A DNA stretch of 64,000 nt from contig NZ_CP023860.1 of the NCBI RefSeq assembly GCF_003326015.1, forward strand, positions 186,001 to 250,000, in the 5' to 3' direction. Under the pieces are notes generated by a model, which saw only the letters and a program-made list of their open reading frames with translations, did no database searches and was not told where the DNA came from. The position numbers and the translations under genes are program-made. Shown piece after piece: positions 2,028-33,274 of this stretch (the first letter of the stretch is position 1; the number at the start of each line of letters is the position of its first letter). Source of the DNA: Candidatus Thioglobus sp. NP1 (GTDB taxonomy: Bacteria; Pseudomonadota; Gammaproteobacteria; PS1; Pseudothioglobaceae).

Positions 2028-3506
2028 ATGAAAAGTATTAAGTCTGCAGGCGTTATTGGCGCAGGCGTTATTGGTAGTGGATGGATAGCTAGATTTTTGT
2101 TAAATGGAATTGATGTTTATGTCTATGACCCATCTACAGAAGCACCTGCAAATGTAGACAAAGTTGTTAAAAATGCTGAGCGATCATATAAAAAATTGCT
2201 CAGATCTGATCTGCCTAAAAAGGGCACTCTTTCATTCTCAAGCTCAGTCTCAGAAGTTGCAAGATCTGCAAAATTAATTATTGAAGCCGTTCCAGAAAGA
2301 CTTTCTGCCAAGCAATCTGTTTATGATGAAATTGAATCAAGTAGCAATAGTGAAGTCATTATTGCCTCATCAACCTCTGGAATTCTGCCTTCAGATTTAC
2401 AAGCTCAGATGTCACATCCTGATAGACTCTTAGTTGCCCATCCTTTTAATCCAGTTTATCTTCTGCCACTAGTAGAGATGGTTGGTGGTGAAAAAACCTC
2501 TAAAAAAGTAATTGAAGAAACAAGTAATATTCTTAGCGTTATTGGCATGTTCCCCCTCCATATTAAAAAAGAAATCCCGGCGTTTATTGCAGATAGACTT
2601 CTTGAGTCAGTATGGAGAGAGGCGCTATGGCTAGTCAATGATAATGTTGCTACTACTGAAGAAATTGATGATGCCATTCGTTATGGATTTGGACTTCGCT
2701 GGGCACAGATGGGGCTTTTCGAAACCTATAGGCTGGCTGGAGGAGATGCTGGCATGCGTCATTTCATATCCCAATTTGGTCCATGCCTTGAATGGCCTTG
2801 GACTCATCTTACCGATGTTCCCGAATTTACAGATGAACTAATAGATAAGGTATCCAATCAATCTGATTTGCAATCAGGTCAATATAGCATTGATGAATTG
2901 ATGCAAAAACGTGATGATAACTTGGTTGATTTTTTAAAAGTGCTAAAAAATAATCGATGGGGAGCTGGAAATATCCTTAAAGATTTTGATGAGAGACTAT
3001 CAAATCCAAAATCGAAAATAGAATTCTCAAAACTTGATTTAACTCAACCTTTACTCACTTTCGAAACAAAAATTCCAAAAGAATGGGTTGATTATAATGG
3101 GCATATGACTGAGTCTCGCTACCTTGAATGCTTTTCAGAAGCAACGACAGAAATGATGGCTATTGTTGGTGCCAACGAAGATTATATTTCTAGTGTTGGG
3201 TCTTACTTTACAGTAGAAACTCATATTCGACATTTAGATGAAGTATTAATTGGTGAAAAAATTTATTCAAAAACACAGGTTATCTTTGGAGAAAATAAAA
3301 AACTACACCTATTTCATTGGCTTTATCATGAGAGTGATCGATTACTAGCAACAGCTGAACATATGCTAATTCATGTTGATCTTAATACTCGAGCTGCTAG
3401 CTTACCTAATGACGATGTTTTAAAAAGAATGTCAATGGTTTATGAGGCCCACAAAGAACTGCCAAAACCAGATGGGCTTAATCGTGCAGTTGGTGATAAA
3501 TTTTAA
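2028..3506 (+). CDS. lcdH: L-carnitine 3-dehydrogenase fused to a betainyl-CoA thioesterase
   Basis: The N-terminal part (about 1-320) is an NAD-dependent 3-hydroxyacyl-dehydrogenase-type enzyme: Rossmann motif GAGVIGSGW at residues 10-18 and the catalytic-His region HPFNPVYLLPLVEMVGG near 140. It would oxidise carnitine to 3-dehydrocarnitine. The last 150 or so residues are a hotdog thioesterase, opening with the typical IPKEWVDYNGHMTESRY, which would hydrolyse the betainyl-CoA made by the upstream cleavage enzyme. Together the two genes give glycine betaine plus acetoacetate. The 492-aa length fits the known fused form of the enzyme in other proteobacteria. It starts 2 bases after the BKACE stop and its 3' end overlaps the convergent SDR gene by 4 bases. 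Confidence 0.9.
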   Translation: MKSIKSAGVIGAGVIGSGWIARFLLNGIDVYVYDPSTEAPANVDKVVKNAERSYKKLLRSDLPKKGTLSFSSSVSEVARSAKLIIEAVPERLSAKQSVYDEIESSSNSEVIIASSTSGILPSDLQAQMSHPDRLLVAHPFNPVYLLPLVEMVGGEKTSKKVIEETSNILSVIGMFPLHIKKEIPAFIADRLLESVWREALWLVNDNVATTEEIDDAIRYGFGLRWAQMGLFETYRLAGGDAGMRHFISQFGPCLEWPWTHLTDVPEFTDELIDKVSNQSDLQSGQYSIDELMQKRDDNLVDFLKVLKNNRWGAGNILKDFDERLSNPKSKIEFSKLDLTQPLLTFETKIPKEWVDYNGHMTESRYLECFSEATTEMMAIVGANEDYISSVGSYFTVETHIRHLDEVLIGEKIYSKTQVIFGENKKLHLFHWLYHESDRLLATAEHMLIHVDLNTRAASLPNDDVLKRMSMVYEAHKELPKPDGLNRAVGDKF

Positions 3507-7324: not shown

Positions 7325-7932
7325 GATTGAATCTGTTTAATAAAAGCCTTTATTTTATCAATATCTTTGATGCCTGGCTCACTTTCAACACCACTTGAAG
7401 CATCTACAGCAAAAGGTTTAACCTGTTTAATCGCATCTTTTACATTTTCAGAAGTAAGCCCACCGGCAAGAATAATAGGCAAGTCAATATCAACACAGGC
7501 TAAAGACCAATCAAAAACTTCTCCAGTTCCACCATAATTACTAGGATTATAAGAATCGAGAAGTAAGGCACTTGCCATAGAAAAATCATCTGCTATTTGA
7601 GACACATTGGTATCCTGGGATACACGAACAGACTTAATGAAGGGCATTTGGAATTGAGTACAATCAATTACAGTTTCATCGCCATGAAACTGAAGGGTAT
7701 CGATTGGAACTTCGCATAGTATTTCATCAATAAAGCTTGGATTTGCATTTACAAATAAACCTACTCTATTTACAAAAGGAGGGAGAGATGAAACAATTTC
7801 TAGAGCATTTTCAATATCAATATTTCGTGGTGACTTCTCATAGAAAACCATACCAACAGCATCAACTCCAAGAAGTGATGCCTCTTTAGCATTAATAGCA
7901 TTTGTAAAACCACAAATCTTTACATTGGTCAT
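7321..7932 (-). CDS. trpF: Phosphoribosylanthranilate isomerase
   Basis: TIM-barrel enzyme of tryptophan synthesis that converts N-(5-phosphoribosyl)anthranilate to the deoxyribulose phosphate form. At 203 aa it is full length. The N-terminal VKICGF holds the catalytic Cys, and [20 protein letters not shown] and [10 protein letters not shown] are the typical phosphate-binding and active-site loops, with the late VDASSGVES. It is the first gene of a trpF-trpB pair overlapping by 4 bases. Confidence 0.97.
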
Positions 7933-26503: not shown

Positions 26504-27148
26504 ATGCAAATTAATTCAAACCAAAAAACTATCAATAAGTATGAAATTCCAATAGCGCCCTATTTGAAGGATTTATCAAGTGTTGCTATGTATCTTGATG
26601 AAATGAACTTTCAGCTATTGACTCAGATTGAGCCCTACAAAAATAATAATATTTGGACAGCGGTATCTCTGCATGGATTTGGTGCATGCCCATCAGATAT
26701 TTTCAAACCAGGGTTTACAAAAAATAAAATAATAGTTGATACAAAATTACAATGGACAACTCTTCGCAACCAATCAGTAATGAAACCATTATGTGAAATA
26801 GTTTTTAATTTACCCTGTGATTTTGAGAGAATTCGCATTATGAAGCTACTATCAGGCAAAGCCCTAAAAAAACATACTGATAATATTGATAATGATATAA
26901 AAAATAAAAAAGTTGTACGACTTCACATACCCATTAGAACTAGTAATGATGTTATTTTTACTTTATACAATAATGAAGAAGATAAAGTAGGTGAAGAAAT
27001 AAATTTAAAAACAGGGCATTATTACTATCTTGACGTTACTAAGCCTCATTCAGTAAGAAATAAAAGCAGTGTTGACCGATATCATCTTGTAGTGGACTGC
27101 TTTGTAAATGATGAATTAAAGGCTCTGCTTCATAACTTTACTCCATGA
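26504..27148 (+). CDS. Aspartyl/asparaginyl beta-hydroxylase-like 2-oxoglutarate oxygenase
   Basis: A 214-aa cupin-fold, Fe(II)/2-oxoglutarate-type protein. The iron ligands fit KKHTDN near residue 127 (HxD) and the distal His in TKPHSVRNKS near 182. The following Arg in DRYHLVVDCF would bind 2-oxoglutarate, and VVRLHIPIRT is the typical strand between them. This is the Asp/Asn hydroxylase-like family, whose bacterial members modify amino acids or peptides. The substrate is unknown. It stands alone, with long non-coding space after it. Confidence 0.75.
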   Translation: MQINSNQKTINKYEIPIAPYLKDLSSVAMYLDEMNFQLLTQIEPYKNNNIWTAVSLHGFGACPSDIFKPGFTKNKIIVDTKLQWTTLRNQSVMKPLCEIVFNLPCDFERIRIMKLLSGKALKKHTDNIDNDIKNKKVVRLHIPIRTSNDVIFTLYNNEEDKVGEEINLKTGHYYYLDVTKPHSVRNKSSVDRYHLVVDCFVNDELKALLHNFTP

Positions 27149-27189
27149 GCTGAATATTTAACTTAAAGTATAATAAAACGGTATTTTTA

Positions 27190-27211
27190 TCAATAAATAG
27201 CTATTTATTGA
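27190..27211. repeat. Perfect 22-base palindrome
   Basis: TCAATAAATAG at 27190-27200 is followed directly by its exact reverse complement at 27201-27211. It is about 175 bases upstream of the -35 box of the downstream operon and 40 bases after the hydroxylase stop. It could be a regulator site or a weak terminator stem; there is no T run after it. Confidence 0.5.
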
Positions 27212-27386
27212 CAATAAAAGCTGATTTTTTTATTTTTTATCTTAAAAATACTATTTATTCTATATAAAATCCTTATTTTTACGAAAAAATATCATTTTTC
27301 TGCGTATTTAGGTGTTTATTTTAATAAATTAGAATATTTAAATAAAAATTTAACCTTAAATACTTAAAATATCTTATTTTTACAAC

Positions 27387-27415
27387 TTGACATACTACAT
27401 TTAATACTTTATATT
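27387..27415 (+). promoter_or_regulatory. Near-consensus sigma70 promoter of the pyridinium-degradation operon
   Basis: A perfect TTGACA at 27387-27392, a 17-base spacer and TATATT at 27410-27415. A start near 27422 would give a leader of about 75 bases before the GTG at 27497. Confidence 0.7.
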
Positions 27416-27425
27416 TCATATTACT

Positions 27426-27506
27426 CAAGTCGGCAGGCAGTGAGAGAAAAAGGTGTGTGCCCTGAAAGATTTTTGATATTATAAATGGACTGACTTGTGT
27501 CTCACT
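27426..27506 (+). promoter_or_regulatory. Structured 5' leader that can sequester the GTG start (riboswitch-like candidate)
   Basis: CAAGTCGG (27426-27433) pairs with CTGACTTG (27490-27497), an 8-bp stem with one G-T pair; its last G is the first base of the GTG start codon. Inside, CAGGCA (27434-27439) pairs with TGCC-C-TG (27458-27464), with one bulged C. In addition, AGTGAGA in the inner loop (27439-27445) is exactly complementary to TCTCACT (27500-27506) at the start of the coding region, allowing a pseudoknot or an alternative fold. It matches no riboswitch class I can recall. The pairings are seen by eye; function is inferred. Confidence 0.4.
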
Positions 27507-28336
27507 TGGAAATAACTCACCAAAATAATGTCCCTACTCTTTTTAATAGAGATGGAACTTCATATCAAACTTATGGTACCTCCGGGCATTCTTTAATTTT
27601 TATACATGGAGTTGGAATGTGTGCTGATATATGGGAACCTCAGGTTGAATATTTTGCAGAAAAATTTCAGGTGTTGACATATGACCTTCTCGGTCATGGC
27701 CAAACTCAACTCAACAATAATTTGCCTCAACTCAATGATTATGTTGAACAATTAAACAATCTAGTAAATAGTCTTAATATCTCAAAGTTTTTTTTAGTTG
27801 GTCACTCAATGGGTGCAATTATAAGTATTGCATATTCTTTAAAGTATCCTGGCAAAATACTATCCCTTATTCCTTTAAATATTGTATTTAATCGAACTAA
27901 AAAAGCGCGTAATGATGTTTTAAAGAGAGCTGAAAGCATCTTAAATTCAAAAAAAATACTTAATATTGATCAAACTTTAGTACGCTGGTTCAAAAATAAA
28001 ACTAGCTCTGAAGATCTTATTAAAATTGATAAAGTGATAAATATTCTAAAAAATGCATCACCTAAGGGTTATGGTGAAGCATATCGAATATTTGCTTTGT
28101 CAGACAAAATCTTTATTAATAATCTTTCAGAAATACAAGTTCCTGTTCTATACTTAACAGGAAGCGAAGATTTAAATTCTACAGCCCTAATGTCTGATCA
28201 GATGTCAAAAAAAACACCTGGCAGTTTAAGTAAGTCTATTAAAGGTGAGGCTCATATGATGGCATATATATCTGGGCATAAAGTCAATCCAATAATAGAA
28301 CAATTTTTTATTAATACTCAAAATAATACGCAATGA
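27497..28336 (+). CDS. Alpha/beta hydrolase, TgnD-like (ring-opened trigonelline intermediate hydrolase)
   Basis: A 279-aa alpha/beta-hydrolase with oxyanion region LIFIHGVGMCADIW near residue 36, nucleophile Ser104 in GHSMGA, acid Asp in LYLTGSEDLN and a catalytic His in GEAHMMAY. It heads an operon with flavin reductase, luciferase-like monooxygenase and aldehyde dehydrogenase. That set matches the trigonelline pathway of Acinetobacter, in which TgnD splits (E)-2-((N-methylformamido)methylene)succinate to succinate semialdehyde, methylamine, formate and CO2. The start is GTG 27497, placed where the hydrolase fold should begin. It overlaps the reductase gene by 4 bases. Confidence 0.75.
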   Translation: MSHLEITHQNNVPTLFNRDGTSYQTYGTSGHSLIFIHGVGMCADIWEPQVEYFAEKFQVLTYDLLGHGQTQLNNNLPQLNDYVEQLNNLVNSLNISKFFLVGHSMGAIISIAYSLKYPGKILSLIPLNIVFNRTKKARNDVLKRAESILNSKKILNIDQTLVRWFKNKTSSEDLIKIDKVINILKNASPKGYGEAYRIFALSDKIFINNLSEIQVPVLYLTGSEDLNSTALMSDQMSKKTPGSLSKSIKGEAHMMAYISGHKVNPIIEQFFINTQNNTQ

Positions 28337-29280
28337 AGAAAGAAGAAACTAGAGACTTAAGACATGCGCTTGGTTCGTTTCCAACTGGAGTAACAATTGT
28401 TACCTCTTTAGACAAAAATGACAAACCAATAGGCTTTACTGCAAACTCCTTTACATCAGTATCACTAGATCCTCAATTAATATTAATATGTATTGATAAA
28501 GCCTCATTTAATATTGAATCTTTCTCTACAGGGAAGAATTTTGCTGTTAGTGTTCTATCAGAGAATCAACAACACATCTCTAATACTTTTGCAAGCCCTG
28601 AAGATGATCGTTTTAAAAATATCAAATGGGAGAAAAAAACTACTGGAAGCCCAATTATTTCAGGTTCTGTTGCCTGGTTTGACTGTATTAAAAATCAGTT
28701 TATAGATGCTGGTGATCATTTTATTCTCATTGGAAAAGTAGCAGAGTTTGATAGCAACAAGCAAACTCCACTAGTTTATTTACGCGGTAATTATGTTAAT
28801 CTTAGTCTTGAGCAAAAGATGTTACTTGCAATGGAAAATAAGAATACCAAGATACTTGTGGGTGCTCTCATTGAGTGGCGTAAAAAAATACTACTTTTAG
28901 AAGATAAAGCAACAAGCCTTCTATATTTTCCAACTGCGACTAGGCTTGGTCAAGCAAGTGATGATGAAAGCCTCCTTGGTAAGCTTGAAAACCTAAATAT
29001 TAATATATCAGACCATTATCTATTTTCAGTATTTGAAAACAGTGATGATAAAACCAGTTTAATATATTATCGAGCTCAGGTCGAAGATGGGTCTTCAGTT
29101 ACCTCAGGTAAATTCTTTGAATTTGATTCAATTCCTTTTAAGCAGTTGACTGATGAAGCGAGTAGAATAATGCTTAAACGCTATATTAAAGAAAGAGAGT
29201 TGGATGCTTTTGGAATATTTGTAGGTAAGGAAAGTGAAGGCAAAGTAGAAGCAATATCTAAAATTAATCAAAATATATAG
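28333..29280 (+). CDS. Flavin reductase with an extra C-terminal domain, TgnA-like
   Basis: Residues 1 to about 160 are a flavin reductase-like domain (ALGSFPTGVTIVTS, GFTANSFTSVSLDPQLILICID, NFAVSVLSENQ) that would supply reduced FMN to the monooxygenase encoded next. About 155 further residues follow that are not part of a standard flavin reductase. They run as alternating strands (KILVGALIEWRKKILLLED, LYFPTATRLGQ, HYLFSVFE, SLIYYRAQVEDG) and look like a Nudix-type fold without a recognisable Nudix box. An accessory or regulatory domain is likely. The first domain is certain; the second is a guess from pattern. Confidence 0.8.
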   Translation: MKKEETRDLRHALGSFPTGVTIVTSLDKNDKPIGFTANSFTSVSLDPQLILICIDKASFNIESFSTGKNFAVSVLSENQQHISNTFASPEDDRFKNIKWEKKTTGSPIISGSVAWFDCIKNQFIDAGDHFILIGKVAEFDSNKQTPLVYLRGNYVNLSLEQKMLLAMENKNTKILVGALIEWRKKILLLEDKATSLLYFPTATRLGQASDDESLLGKLENLNINISDHYLFSVFENSDDKTSLIYYRAQVEDGSSVTSGKFFEFDSIPFKQLTDEASRIMLKRYIKERELDAFGIFVGKESEGKVEAISKINQNI

Positions 29281-29291
29281 GGGCTATTAAT

Positions 29292-30329
29292 ATGGATTTT
29301 TCTTTATTTATACAAATGGAAAGGATCGATGAGGAACAGTCACAGAAACGTTTGTATGATGAGTTTGTTGATTTATGTCAAATAGCTGATAAGTCTGGTT
29401 TCAAAACAATATGGACTGGCGAACATCATGGTATGAACTTTACTATTGCCCCTAATCCATTTGTCAATATTGCCGATTTAGCAAATAAAACAAATAATGT
29501 CAGGCTTGGAACTGGAACAATTATTGCCCCTTTTTGGCACCCAATAAAACTTGCTGAAGAAGCTGCAATGACAGATATTATTTCAGATGGAAGATTAGAA
29601 ATAGGAATTGCTCGAGGAGCCTACTCCTTCGAATATGATCGGCTTGCAGGTGGCATGGATGCCTTTTCAGCTGGTAGCGCTTTAAGAGAAATAGTACCCG
29701 CTATAAAGGCTTTATGGAAGGGTGACTATACTGGGGATGGAGAGCATTGGTCGTTTCCAAAAACTACTAGCTCACCAAAACCCCTTCAATCACCTAATCC
29801 ACCTATTTGGATTGCAGCAAGAGACCAACATTCTCATGACTTTGCCGTTGAAGAGGGATGTAATGTTCAAGTGACGCCTTTATGGCTTGGTGATGATGAA
29901 GTTTCATCTTTAATGGATAGATTTAATAATTCATGCAAAAAATTTAAAGAAATTCAGAGGCCAAAAATAATGGTTCTTCGACATACGTTTGTGGGTGAAA
30001 GTGAAGAGGAGGTCGTGCAAGGCTCTAAAGATATATCAAGATTCTATTGTTATTTTGGCGCATGGTTCAAGAATGAAAGACCAATTGAACAAGGGCTTAT
30101 CGAAAAACTTACTGAAGAAGAGATGTCTAAACTTGAAATGTATTCTCCTGAAAAAATGCGTAAAAACAGCATTATTGGAACTGCTGATGAAGTTATTCAA
30201 AGAATTAAATTTTGTGAAGATCTTGGCTATGATGAGTATAGTTACTGGATTGATAGTAGCATGAGTTTTGAAAAGAAAAAGAAGTCGTTAGAGCTCTTTA
30301 TTGAAAAAGTGATGCCAGAATTTACTTAA
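29292..30329 (+). CDS. Luciferase-like FMN-dependent monooxygenase, TgnB-like
   Basis: A 345-aa bacterial-luciferase-family TIM barrel: WTGEHHGMNFTIAPNPF near residue 44, LGTGTIIAPFWHPIKLAEEAAM, the phosphate-binding GRLEIGIARGAYSFEYDR and NPPIWIAARDQHSHDFA. It needs reduced flavin from the reductase encoded 11 bases upstream. In the trigonelline pathway TgnB oxidatively opens the N-methylpyridinium ring. The isomeric marine betaine homarine or another N-heterocycle are alternative substrates. Family is firm; substrate is inferred from operon content. Confidence 0.85.
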   Translation: MDFSLFIQMERIDEEQSQKRLYDEFVDLCQIADKSGFKTIWTGEHHGMNFTIAPNPFVNIADLANKTNNVRLGTGTIIAPFWHPIKLAEEAAMTDIISDGRLEIGIARGAYSFEYDRLAGGMDAFSAGSALREIVPAIKALWKGDYTGDGEHWSFPKTTSSPKPLQSPNPPIWIAARDQHSHDFAVEEGCNVQVTPLWLGDDEVSSLMDRFNNSCKKFKEIQRPKIMVLRHTFVGESEEEVVQGSKDISRFYCYFGAWFKNERPIEQGLIEKLTEEEMSKLEMYSPEKMRKNSIIGTADEVIQRIKFCEDLGYDEYSYWIDSSMSFEKKKKSLELFIEKVMPEFT

Positions 30330-30340
30330 AAGGAAATTGA

Positions 30341-31810
30341 ATGAAACACTTTAAGCATTATATTAATGGAAAGTTTAGCGCTGGATCAAACCACTTTGAA
30401 AGCCTTAACCCGGCCACAGGTCAACCATGGGCAACTTTTCCAGCTGCCTCTAAAGAAGAGTCAAACCTTGCTATTGAATCCGCGCATGAAGCTTTATATA
30501 AAGGCCCATGGTCAGAATTTACAGCAACTGAAAGAGGCAAAATAATTTATAAACTTGGTGACCTAATATCAGAACACGCAAGCGAGCTAGGTGAACTTGA
30601 AACAATGGATAGTGGAAAGTTAGCTGCTGAAACAAAAGCGCAATCCAGCTATGTTGCAGATTATTATTATTATTATGCAGGCTTAGCAGACAAAATTCAA
30701 GGTGAGGTTCTCCCAATAGATAAACCAAATATGAGGGTTTTTACTACTCGTGAACCCATTGGGGTAGTAGTTGCAATCGTTCCATGGAACGCTCAACTTT
30801 TTTTATCAGCAACAAAGATAGCGCCTGCTTTGGCTGCTGGCAATACTATTGTTGTTAAAGCTTCGGAACAGGCTCCTGCAGCGCTTTTTAAATTTGCTGA
30901 ACTGGTTCAAAAAAGTGGCTTTCCACCTGGTGTTATAAATATAATTACCGGTTTTGCAGAGCCTTGTGGTCGCACCATTACGTCTCACCCTAAAGTTGCA
31001 AGGGTTGCTTTTACAGGTGGTACCGAAGTAGCAAGGCATATAGTTAGAAATACTGCAGAAAATTTTGCACATGTTAGTCTTGAACTTGGTGGTAAATCAC
31101 CAATGTTAATTTTCGATGATTGTAATATCGATGGTGCAGTAAATGCTATTATTGCAGGGAATTTTGGAGCATCTGGACAAAGTTGCGTTGCTGGCTCAAG
31201 AGTATTTATACAGAGATCAATTCACAAGAAAATCATTAATGAGATTAAAGATCGAGCAAGATTAATTACCGTAGGTGATCCTCTGGATGAGAATACACAA
31301 GTTGGCCCCCTAGCAACAAAACATCAAGTTGAAAGAGCCTCAGTTGTTATAAAAAATTCTATTAAACAAGGAGCAACACTTATTTTTGGTGGGGGCACTC
31401 CAAAACACATGCATCAAGGATGGTACTTTGAGCCTACTATGCTTGATTGTCATAGTCAGGAATATGACTGCGTAAAAACTGAGCTCTTTGCTCCAGTTAT
31501 TAGTGTCATTGCTTTTGATACAGAAGATGATGTAATTGAAATGGCAAACGATTCTGAATATGGCCTTGGAGCCGGCGTTTTTACAGAAAATCTAGCGAGA
31601 GCTCATCGAGTAAGTCAACAAATTCATTCTGGGATTGTATGGATAAATACTTATAGAGCGATTTCTCCAATCTCTCCATTTGGAGGATTTAAACAAAGTG
31701 GGGGGAGTCGTGAAGCAGGAGTTGATGCAATCCACGAATATACTAGAACTAAAACAACATGGATTAATACCTCAAGTGAACCAATGAGTAACCCTTTTAT
31801 AATAAGGTAA
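30341..31810 (+). CDS. Aldehyde dehydrogenase, TgnC-like
   Basis: A full-length 489-aa NAD(P)-dependent aldehyde dehydrogenase. Markers are VVAIVPWNAQLFL near residue 146, FTGGTEVARHI, the general-base Glu in LELGGKSPM near 252, the nucleophile Cys in GQSCVAGSRVF near 287 and the C-terminal PFGGFKQSGGSREAG. In the trigonelline operon TgnC oxidises the hydroxybutyrolactone form of the ring-opened product, and this gene occupies the matching place. It follows the monooxygenase by 11 bases. Confidence 0.85.
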   Translation: MKHFKHYINGKFSAGSNHFESLNPATGQPWATFPAASKEESNLAIESAHEALYKGPWSEFTATERGKIIYKLGDLISEHASELGELETMDSGKLAAETKAQSSYVADYYYYYAGLADKIQGEVLPIDKPNMRVFTTREPIGVVVAIVPWNAQLFLSATKIAPALAAGNTIVVKASEQAPAALFKFAELVQKSGFPPGVINIITGFAEPCGRTITSHPKVARVAFTGGTEVARHIVRNTAENFAHVSLELGGKSPMLIFDDCNIDGAVNAIIAGNFGASGQSCVAGSRVFIQRSIHKKIINEIKDRARLITVGDPLDENTQVGPLATKHQVERASVVIKNSIKQGATLIFGGGTPKHMHQGWYFEPTMLDCHSQEYDCVKTELFAPVISVIAFDTEDDVIEMANDSEYGLGAGVFTENLARAHRVSQQIHSGIVWINTYRAISPISPFGGFKQSGGSREAGVDAIHEYTRTKTTWINTSSEPMSNPFIIR

Positions 31811-31848: not shown

Positions 31849-32229
31849 ATGGATAAAAAATTATTTGAACTTGGACTTTCTAAAAGAAAGGCAACTCTTG
31901 GAAGTGAGTATGTTGAAAAAAATTTAGAAGCAGCTGATGACTTTAACGAAGATTTTCAAAAACAAATGACAGAATGGTGCTGGGGATTTGGCTGGGGTGA
32001 TGATACAATTAATGAAAAAACAAGATCTATGATGAATTTAACAATGATAGCTGCTCTAGGAAAAATGGATGAATGGGAGATACATCTTAAAGGGGCACTT
32101 ACAAATGGTGTCAGCAAAGATGAGATTAAATCAATACTTCATGTTATTGCAATATATTGTGGTGTTCCTCAGGGTGTTGAGTGTTTCAAAATTGCCCGCA
32201 AGGTTTTAGAAGATTCTGGAGAGATTTAA
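31849..32229 (+). CDS. Carboxymuconolactone decarboxylase-family protein
   Basis: A 126-aa all-helical protein of the CMD/AhpD family (RSMMNLTMIAALGKMDEWEIHLKGALTNGVSKDEIKSILHVIAIYCGVPQGVECFKIA). The AhpD-type CxxC is absent; a Cys is in IYCGVPQG. It is preceded by a good ribosome site (AGGAG) and lies 38 bases after the aldehyde dehydrogenase. I do not recall it as part of the known trigonelline operon, so it may handle an extra intermediate or tune the pathway. Confidence 0.8.
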   Translation: MDKKLFELGLSKRKATLGSEYVEKNLEAADDFNEDFQKQMTEWCWGFGWGDDTINEKTRSMMNLTMIAALGKMDEWEIHLKGALTNGVSKDEIKSILHVIAIYCGVPQGVECFKIARKVLEDSGEI

Positions 32230-32243
32230 TATGCGCAGAGGTC

Positions 32244-33140
32244 TTAACTCGATTTATTAGAGGTAGTCATAGCTACTGCAAATGCTATTAATAAAACTCC
32301 AATTATTGAAATAAGGTTCATAGTTTCCCCAAATAAATACCAAGCTTGTATAGCAACAAGTGCTGGCACTAAATAAAAATAACTCCCAACTCTTGCTGAT
32401 GCATCTTGCTTGATCATTGTCATTAATAGAAGGACTGCCCCAATTGAAAGCCCAAACACCTGCCAGGCTAAGGTAACAATAAATGTATTAGTCCAATTAA
32501 TATCGCCATTCTCAAAATAAAAAGACATAACAATGCACAGTATAAAAGCACCAAAATATTGGACTAGAGTCCCACTAATTAAATCCATGTCATTACAAAA
32601 TCGCTTTTGATATATAGTACCAAGAGAGATACCAACTAGAGATCCAAAAACAGCTAAAACCGCCCAAAAAGAATAATTGGTAAATAGTCCAGTAATAGCA
32701 AAATCAACCTTTTCAAATAAAATTAAATATAACCCTATAAGCCCTATTATCAAACCCATCCATTGTTTCTTTGAAACACGCTCATGGAGAATTACTCCTG
32801 CTATCAATGCCATTCCTAGGGGCTGAAGACCAATGATCATTGCGGTAAGGCCAATAGATATATCCCACTTAATTGCTTGAAAAACTCCACCAAGATAAAT
32901 CCCATGAATTAATAAACCTGTTACCATTAAGTGGATAAAGGCCCAACCAGACTTCGGCCAAATACTCTTATTAGCTTGCATTAATATAAACAGCACTATC
33001 AATGTAAGGCCATTACGATAAGTCAATAAAGTAAAAGGTTCAGCATATGGAAGGCCATATTTTGCAGCTACAAAGCCTGTACTCCAAATTAAAACAAATA
33101 ACCATGGCGTAAGGCGCGCGCTTAAAGCAAGATTTTTCAT
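32244..33140 (-). CDS. EamA/DMT-family transporter
   Basis: A polytopic protein of the drug/metabolite transporter family with about ten transmembrane helices in two EamA repeats (LFVLIWSTGFVAAKYGLPYAEPFTLLTYR and, in the second half, LVGISLGTIYQKRF). Such proteins usually export metabolites or amino acids. The frame is open from a TTG at 33152, but the ATG at 33140 (MKNLALSARLTPWLF, 298 aa) fits the family start. It is convergent with the preceding operon (14-base gap), so it has its own promoter. Confidence 0.88.
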   Translation of the reverse strand: MKNLALSARLTPWLFVLIWSTGFVAAKYGLPYAEPFTLLTYRNGLTLIVLFILMQANKSIWPKSGWAFIHLMVTGLLIHGIYLGGVFQAIKWDISIGLTAMIIGLQPLGMALIAGVILHERVSKKQWMGLIIGLIGLYLILFEKVDFAITGLFTNYSFWAVLAVFGSLVGISLGTIYQKRFCNDMDLISGTLVQYFGAFILCIVMSFYFENGDINWTNTFIVTLAWQVFGLSIGAVLLLMTMIKQDASARVGSYFYLVPALVAIQAWYLFGETMNLISIIGVLLIAFAVAMTTSNKSS

Positions 33141-33274
33141 AAAAAACACCAAAAATTCATTAACTTAATGGATCACTAATTAAAATAGATATTCTTGTTA
33201 ATTTAGAATAGATTTTATACAAAATACCCTTATGGCAATAAAGAAACGCAACAAGAGCCAAACAGTTGTTAGAC

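Follow-up and report, generated by a model that had tools for sequence, protein, structure and literature searches.

Known systems

Several small riboswitch families, namely preQ1-I, SAM-II and SAM/SAH, follow a common plan. About 40 nt long and located in leaders of metabolic genes, they consist of a hairpin whose loop pairs with the downstream tail as a pseudoknot, the third loop being rich in purines. More generally, a near-invariant single-stranded block combined with a loop-tail pseudoknot is typical of ligand-binding RNAs. To our knowledge, little is known of how bacteria sense pyridinium compounds. The SAM/SAH riboswitch is described in one account as an H-type fold (PMC7367207). On the catabolic side, one report has TgnA and TgnB opening the ring of trigonelline and considers them unlikely to act on homarine; the same report lists trigonelline as a betaine measured in ocean particles and describes the growth of Ruegeria pomeroyi as poorer on homarine than on trigonelline (PMC8269262).

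The tgn-like operon and its leader

The stretch of DNA analysed here (hereafter the window; 64,000 nt, G000:C1:186001-250000) belongs to a closed 1.69-Mb genome and carries a plus-strand operon that can be compared gene by gene with the annotated trigonelline cluster of Acinetobacter sp. PK01. Both contain a hydrolase, tgnA, tgnB, tgnC and carboxymuconolactone decarboxylase (CMD) genes, at 38-66% identity. In the window, an alpha/beta hydrolase gene with a GTG start comes first (27497-28336; 38% identity to the hydrolase of the annotated tgn cluster), followed by genes for a TgnA-like flavin reductase (28333-29280; 39% to annotated tgnA), a TgnB-like LLM monooxygenase (29292-30329; 66% over 345 aa to annotated tgnB, the oxygenase component of the flavin-dependent trigonelline monooxygenase), a TgnC-like aldehyde dehydrogenase (30341-31810; 54% to annotated tgnC) and a CMD family protein (31849-32229; 46% to the CMD gene of the annotated cluster). 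The presence of a TgnB orthologue together with tgnA and tgnC in the order of the annotated cluster, at 66, 39 and 54% identity, respectively, identifies the operon, as judged from its sequence, as a predicted tgn-like operon of the trigonelline type. The substrate type named in the original prediction is hence supported by the LLM protein and by the similar gene order. The Acinetobacter cluster differs in that additional genes separate tgnC from the CMD gene. Further, this annotated plasmid cluster has GntR and amino-acid-synthesis-family genes and no leader of the kind described below, whereas the window has the leader and, as had been remarked from the sequence, no evident regulator either within the operon or directly beside it. 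The three annotated tgn-type clusters checked (L209, L210, L211) all carry GntR genes and have no leader. Flanking the operon are a plus-strand gene for a PF05118 aspartyl/asparaginyl beta-hydroxylase-like protein 5' of the leader (26504-27148) and a convergent EamA-family transporter gene on the minus strand (32244-33152), possibly a carrier of the substrate or product.

Upstream of the hydrolase gene, a -35 hexamer TTGACA (27387-27392) and a -10 hexamer TATATT (27410-27415), both on the plus strand and separated by a 17-nt spacer, agree with the consensus at 11 of 12 bases. The promoter scan returned 8 promoter-like sites in all against 6.3 expected and by itself proves nothing; the near-consensus promoter that had been proposed is borne out by conservation, in that TTG[AC]C is kept 34-45 nt 5' of the core described below in all 21 distinct leaders of the window's genus (and in 32 of 65 others), while the -10 hexamer is visibly conserved in the aligned upstream stretches. 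The transcript start would accordingly be expected a few bases 5' of 27424. The leader is also, as had been claimed, richer in G+C than its surroundings, with a fraction of 0.41 (27426-27500) against 0.16 upstream (27180-27400) and 0.31 in the coding sequence.

The original prediction conceded that its pairings might be due to chance. By folding energy the leader is not structured beyond chance, with 165 of 200 shuffles of 27420-27520 at least as stable, but by conservation it is, with 23 of the 29 genomes of the genus carrying it. The leader is a structured, conserved element, the fold of which differs from the one first proposed.

The conserved core and its covarying fold

The conserved RNA core, a putative aptamer of 38 nt, occupies 27424-27461 on the plus strand. 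Its pattern occurs once in the window and in none of 100 shuffles, and model R3 matches it at 27418-27464 with 66.8 bits. Alignment A3, of 57 copies, defines three helices. In P1, CUCA (27424-27427) pairs with UGAG (27441-27444), and in P2, GUC (27429-27431) pairs with GGC (27436-27438), with both helices paired in 57 of 57 copies. The GGCA of the hairpin loop (27432-27435) pairs with UGCC in the tail (27458-27461) as a pseudoknot. Between hairpin and tail strand lies an unpaired GGUGUG (27452-27457), near-invariant by column conservation in A3, which we consider a candidate ligand pocket.

Across this hairpin with its loop-tail pseudoknot, 98.6% of the alignment cells are paired, and two-sided changes affect 6 of 11 pairs in 19 cells, spread over P1, P2 and the pseudoknot; none of 500 shuffles reaches the paired-cell, pair or cell values, although the number of further pair types is reached by 23 of 500. 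When the partners are slid by 1-3 columns as a control, at most 1 pair and 2 cells have a two-sided change. The third pair of P1 changes from C-G to G-C in L130, L131 and L132, and in P2 a C-G pair becomes G-C in 9 copies and a G-C pair A-U in L002. The pseudoknot taken alone has two-sided changes in 3 of 4 pairs and 6 cells (0 of 500 shuffles), with GACA/UGUC in L178, L179 and L186 (the last from a gammaproteobacterial order), AGCA/UGCU in L185, and a fourth pair that turns from A-U to G-C in L181 and in the second copy of L178, while being non-standard in 8 of 57 copies. Kinship among the sequences inflates such covariation counts; the changes fall in different orders, however. Additionally, the searches were blind to part of what they recovered. 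Model R2 contained the nested stem considered below and neither P1 nor P2, yet it retrieved CUGA/UCAG for CUCA/UGAG (L130-L132) and GUG/CGC for GUC/GGC (L133-L136); R3 contained the P1/P2 hairpin without the pseudoknot, yet it retrieved the pseudoknot variants.

Alignment A1 held 41 of 69 distinct cores, near-identical ones being omitted, together with L036, and was then extended by the seven divergent copies L130-L136. L187 (within a flavin reductase ORF) and L189 were omitted as probable chance matches; L188, although upstream of a hydrolase gene, was left out for lacking U13 and a clear 3' block and for its poor fit to the fold, and L191 (G884) because it has either diverged or been interrupted by an inserted stretch of about 110 nt, beyond which lies a second canonical 3' block. 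The 57 rows of A3 include the second copy of L178, which was read by eye and not reported as a model match.

These results bear directly on the helices first proposed. A lack of covarying substitutions had been named as a refutation, and helices in the leader do covary, so that the leader survives this test; however, the ones that do so are P1, P2 and the 27432-27435/27458-27461 pseudoknot, and the earlier reading had missed the hairpin at 27424-27444 altogether. The complementarity of 27439-27445 to coding bases 27500-27506 is perfect as claimed, but as a pseudoknot it fails comparison, with the needed complement present in 1 of 21 leaders of the window's genus. The 6-bp inner stem fares no better, as a nested stem of this kind, GGCAGGCA/UGUGUGCC, was tried and rejected, having no two-sided change on 49 sequences. 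Against the present fold, RNAalifold favours this nested stem, as it must, being unable to draw pseudoknots. Since the 4-nt loop is wholly used in the pseudoknot above a 3-bp P2, an arrangement that is sterically tight, P2 and the pseudoknot may alternate and may not coexist in full.

Distribution of the core

Within the window's genus, R3 detects the core in front of this operon in 23 genomes out of 29. The set coincides with the genomes in which a hydrolase orthologue (E <= 1e-80) comes with upstream sequence; in a 24th genome with the orthologue (G012) the gene starts at a contig edge, and the five genomes without the orthologue give no match. Among the first 25 hydrolase relatives, the upstream stretches share the core in the form CTCAAGTCGGCAGGCAGTGAG-n-AAAA-GGTGTGTGCC, while most of the remaining intergenic sequence differs; the core is absent upstream of the relative L024, from another genus, and L017 is cut by a contig end.

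Beyond the genus, the core also turns up in other Gammaproteobacteria and among Alphaproteobacteria. The exact 19-mer of its first part occurs in 66 stretches of GTDB genomes, 19 of them from the window's group and the rest mainly from Rhodobacteraceae, with Hyphomicrobiales, Kiloniellales and a few Gammaproteobacteria. At 65 of 68 exact 19-mer sites a same-strand ORF overlaps or begins within 400 nt, in a search that covered sense ORFs. Model searches found the core in 14 of 345 genomes in the family of the Shimia genome G795 (Rhodobacteraceae). In the orders to which G796 and G809 belong, it was found in 5 of 61 and 4 of 199 genomes, respectively; for the order of G788, 9 of 109 genomes matched, of which two were taken for chance and one (L188) fits poorly. 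The core is rare, since apart from the window's own genome a search of 398 genomes of the phylum with R2 gave a single weak match (G490, 26.3 bits), regarded as chance; a pattern search of 369 genomes of the class matched the window's own genome alone. The 19-mer had no match in viral contigs, and plasmids yielded neither a core match nor an MttB protein match at 1e-60.

Most genomes have a single copy; G789 and G810, with two target genes each, have two. Two overlapping tandem cores stand ahead of a flavin reductase gene in genomes of the order Hyphomicrobiales (L179 with L181 in G1250; L178 in G1326, the second copy there read by eye). At L191 (G884; 3081-3240, minus strand), a diverged core and, about 110 nt further on, a second canonical AAACGGTGTGTGCC block stand ahead of mttB, an arrangement that could represent a split copy or a partial duplication. 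A second core at L055 (G800; 7337-7355, minus strand) lies about 3.3 kb from the mttB leader with no convincing gene behind it.

A single MttB group as the other target

Of the 40 neighbourhoods fetched, 35 have the leader ahead of a member of one blast cluster, of which the members at L041 and L036 are PF06253 MttB proteins. In 32 of 35 leader-bearing genomes, one such MttB orthologue stands beside the leader, at 51-100% identity to the L041 query, while the other MttB paralogues listed in leader-bearing genomes are at most 30% identical to it. The association also holds in the opposite direction. Among the 345 genomes drawn from Rhodobacteraceae, 18 have the MttB orthologue and 14 of these have the leader (R2), as against none of the 327 without the orthologue. 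Of 17 MttB-orthologue genomes with upstream sequence, two (G883 and G1049, at L197 and L202) are without the leader; G884 has the odd copy noted above by R3 (35.1 bits), and G1033 is cut by a contig end. The converse case is seen in G810, G796 and G803, which have leaders of the LLM or flavin-reductase type and no leader-linked MttB orthologue, and in G789 one core stands ahead of mttB and another ahead of a flavin reductase gene.

The leader-linked proteins of L041 and L036 match the MttB superfamily (PF06253); the L041 protein differs from the trimethylamine methyltransferases of TIGR02369 in scoring 285.2 bits, below the equivalog cut-off of 525. As mttB is mostly alone among housekeeping neighbours, its substrate is not readable from context. 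The glycine-betaine MtgB of Ruegeria, as described in one report, is also a PF06253 protein, and a non-pyridinium betaine is therefore a possible ligand for the mttB-type leaders (PMC12478193).

Individual loci have neighbours of some interest. At L078 (742-6978), from the likewise leader-bearing Aestuariispira, two leaders accompany genes for a flavin reductase, a TgnB-unlike LLM protein (31% identity to TgnB over 162 aa), an amino-acid-synthesis-family protein, a hydrolase and an aldehyde dehydrogenase, with an upstream Rieske oxygenase weakly related to GbcA. Nicotinate phosphoribosyltransferase and isochorismatase-domain (nicotinamidase-like) genes converge on the leader-linked mttB of L156 (10931-12912, minus strand) in 1 of the 40 neighbourhoods, and at L172 (6094-8598, plus strand) a gene for a DAO and GCV_T protein (sarcosine/dimethylglycine dehydrogenase-like) lies directly 5' of the leader and mttB. 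The mttB orthologue of G1026 (L201 and L128) contains one in-frame TAG and an apparently interrupted start region, and is possibly decayed.

Pairing at the start codon

The original prediction centred on an 8-bp stem closing on the first base of the GTG start codon, and this stem exists as described; 27426-27433 pairs with 27490-27497 through 7 Watson-Crick pairs and one G-U, ending on the G of GTG, and the stem is present in the minimum-energy fold of 27422-27525. Part of it is the segment GACUUG (27492-27497, plus strand; hereafter anti-P1), which can pair with CAAGUC (27426-27431) across the first base of GTG in a putative off state. As a regulatory helix the stem stands in part. Related pairings in a shuffle test reach p <= 0.05 in 14 of 22 genus leaders, but the window's own leader (p 0.13) fails to do so, as do L003-L008 and L021. 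In all 22 genus leaders, the best duplex that the 5' strand can form starts within the stretch from 6 nt before to 11 nt after the called start, the search region having ended 22 nt past the start, and the mean duplex energy is -9.25 kcal/mol against -5.28 for shuffles. In L002, column 12 has become A, its P2 partner U, and the anti-P1 sequence UUUGAG, all changed together.

Elsewhere, p <= 0.05 is reached in 6 of 47 mttB-type leaders, and we rejected anti-P1 as a general output device on this count. In the rows classed as LLM/other it is reached in 3 of 16, a group that includes the mttB-type L093, L128 and L133 and the L055 copy without a clear gene, the leader groups having been set by crude protein motifs. 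Strong anti-P1 matches occur in L050, L063 and L185, the last in another reading frame relative to an ATG. In the window, the anti-P1 fold has an energy of -16.6 kcal/mol and the fold with P1 and P2 forced, computed without the pseudoknot, -14.3 kcal/mol; the two are therefore close. The 8-bp stem may hence be a competing off-state pairing in the window. Taken together, the (G)ACUUGAG-like pairing at the start and the close fold energies make a switch that turns expression on by freeing the start the best reading, at least of these data.

A candidate riboswitch for trigonelline

A conserved core with three covarying helices stands ahead of a tgn-like operon here and ahead of a single MttB orthologue group elsewhere. 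The covarying 5'-leader structure expected of a riboswitch is present (6 of 11 pairs, 0 of 500 shuffles), and so, probably, is a single metabolic theme, namely the tgn-like operon or one MttB group. On this basis we propose, with a probability of roughly 0.58, that the core represents a riboswitch class that responds to trigonelline, or to a close N-methylpyridinium, by switching on the breakdown of that compound. The transcript would begin shortly upstream of the core, and the core would fold into the P1/P2 hairpin with its loop paired to the downstream UGCC, leaving the conserved GGUGUG as the probable pocket for the ligand, presumably trigonelline (N-methylnicotinate) or one of its close N-methylpyridinium relatives. 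When no ligand is bound, the 5' strand CUCAAGUC would pair with the (G)ACUUGAG-type sequence at the start codon and block translation; ligand binding would hold the 5' strand in P1/P2, so that the start is freed and the breakdown operon comes on.

The most serious competitor keeps the same RNA switch and changes its ligand to homarine, nicotinate, a ring-opened intermediate, methylamine or another N-methyl compound. A tgn-like operon and an N-methyl demethylase family would be linked most simply by a common substrate, and in the window's genus the best characterised relatives are tgn genes; however, the leader also precedes the MttB group, the substrate of which may be another, and the LLM gene of L078, the product of which is so distant from TgnB that its substrate may differ, leaving room for a related ligand. 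For the individual candidates, the neighbours of L156 would fit nicotinate release, yet they occur at 1 of 40 loci only, and homarine has against it that, in the report cited above, TgnA and TgnB are held unlikely to act on it (PMC8269262). We consider another ligand a minority possibility, to be taken seriously.

The remaining explanations are much less probable. A conserved RNA-binding protein might control translation by binding the leader, for which a hairpin of near-invariant sequence would be well suited; however, no regulator gene recurs in the compared neighbourhoods, the neighbours of which are partly annotated, and the near-invariant single-stranded block with the loop-tail pseudoknot resembles ligand-binding RNAs, so that we regard a protein site as improbable. 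Still less credible is a DNA operator for a dimeric regulator. P1, the loop/tail pairing and CUCAAGUC...GACUUGAG are inverted repeats in DNA as well, and compensatory changes in half-sites can mimic RNA covariation, but P2 retains T-G in 55 of the 57 copies, with C-G in the other 2, a wobble that is sensible in RNA only, and the core lies 3' of the promoter and, at 65 of the 68 sites, has the same orientation as an ORF downstream of it (sense ORFs being those searched). A short, conserved, transcript-like element could also be a trans-acting small RNA or the target of one; this we judge the least likely of all, as at the examined sites the core lies in a gene leader and mostly occurs once per genome, the second copy of G800 without a convincing gene notwithstanding.

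We found no counterpart of the proposed trigonelline switch among the Rfam families. Rfam 15 (4227 families) at the gathering threshold gives no match in the window or in 14 loci, and permissive scans give none to the leader at E <= 10 (27100-27800, plus strand) or at E <= 1 in four divergent loci, in agreement with the earlier statement that the leader matches no known riboswitch family. The preQ1-I, SAM-II and SAM/SAH families, which we take to be included in the Rfam library, gave no model match in the window or the scanned loci. The core shares their size, their hairpin with a loop-tail pseudoknot, their purine-rich third loop and their leader position, but it differs in core sequence, in having genes for the breakdown of N-methylated compounds as targets and in a pseudoknot 3' strand that is not at a Shine-Dalgarno sequence. 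No published report of the core RNA was found among the open-licence papers listed. We rate the core RNA as a new class within the riboswitch kind.

Implications

A more specific form of the proposal, to which we give slightly less than even odds, is that this is the first riboswitch for trigonelline (or an N-methylpyridinium), and that it serves, depending on the lineage, as an on-switch for either TgnABC-type oxidative ring opening or corrinoid-dependent demethylation by MttB, sometimes as a tandem pair. If so, the unnamed MttB group would be a trigonelline demethylase. A covarying leader linked both with a tgn-like operon and with one MttB group provides a testable ligand and a functional lead for that group. 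Should trigonelline indeed be bound, it would be a new type of ligand for riboswitches, and the leader would be a marker for trigonelline metabolism in marine genomes.
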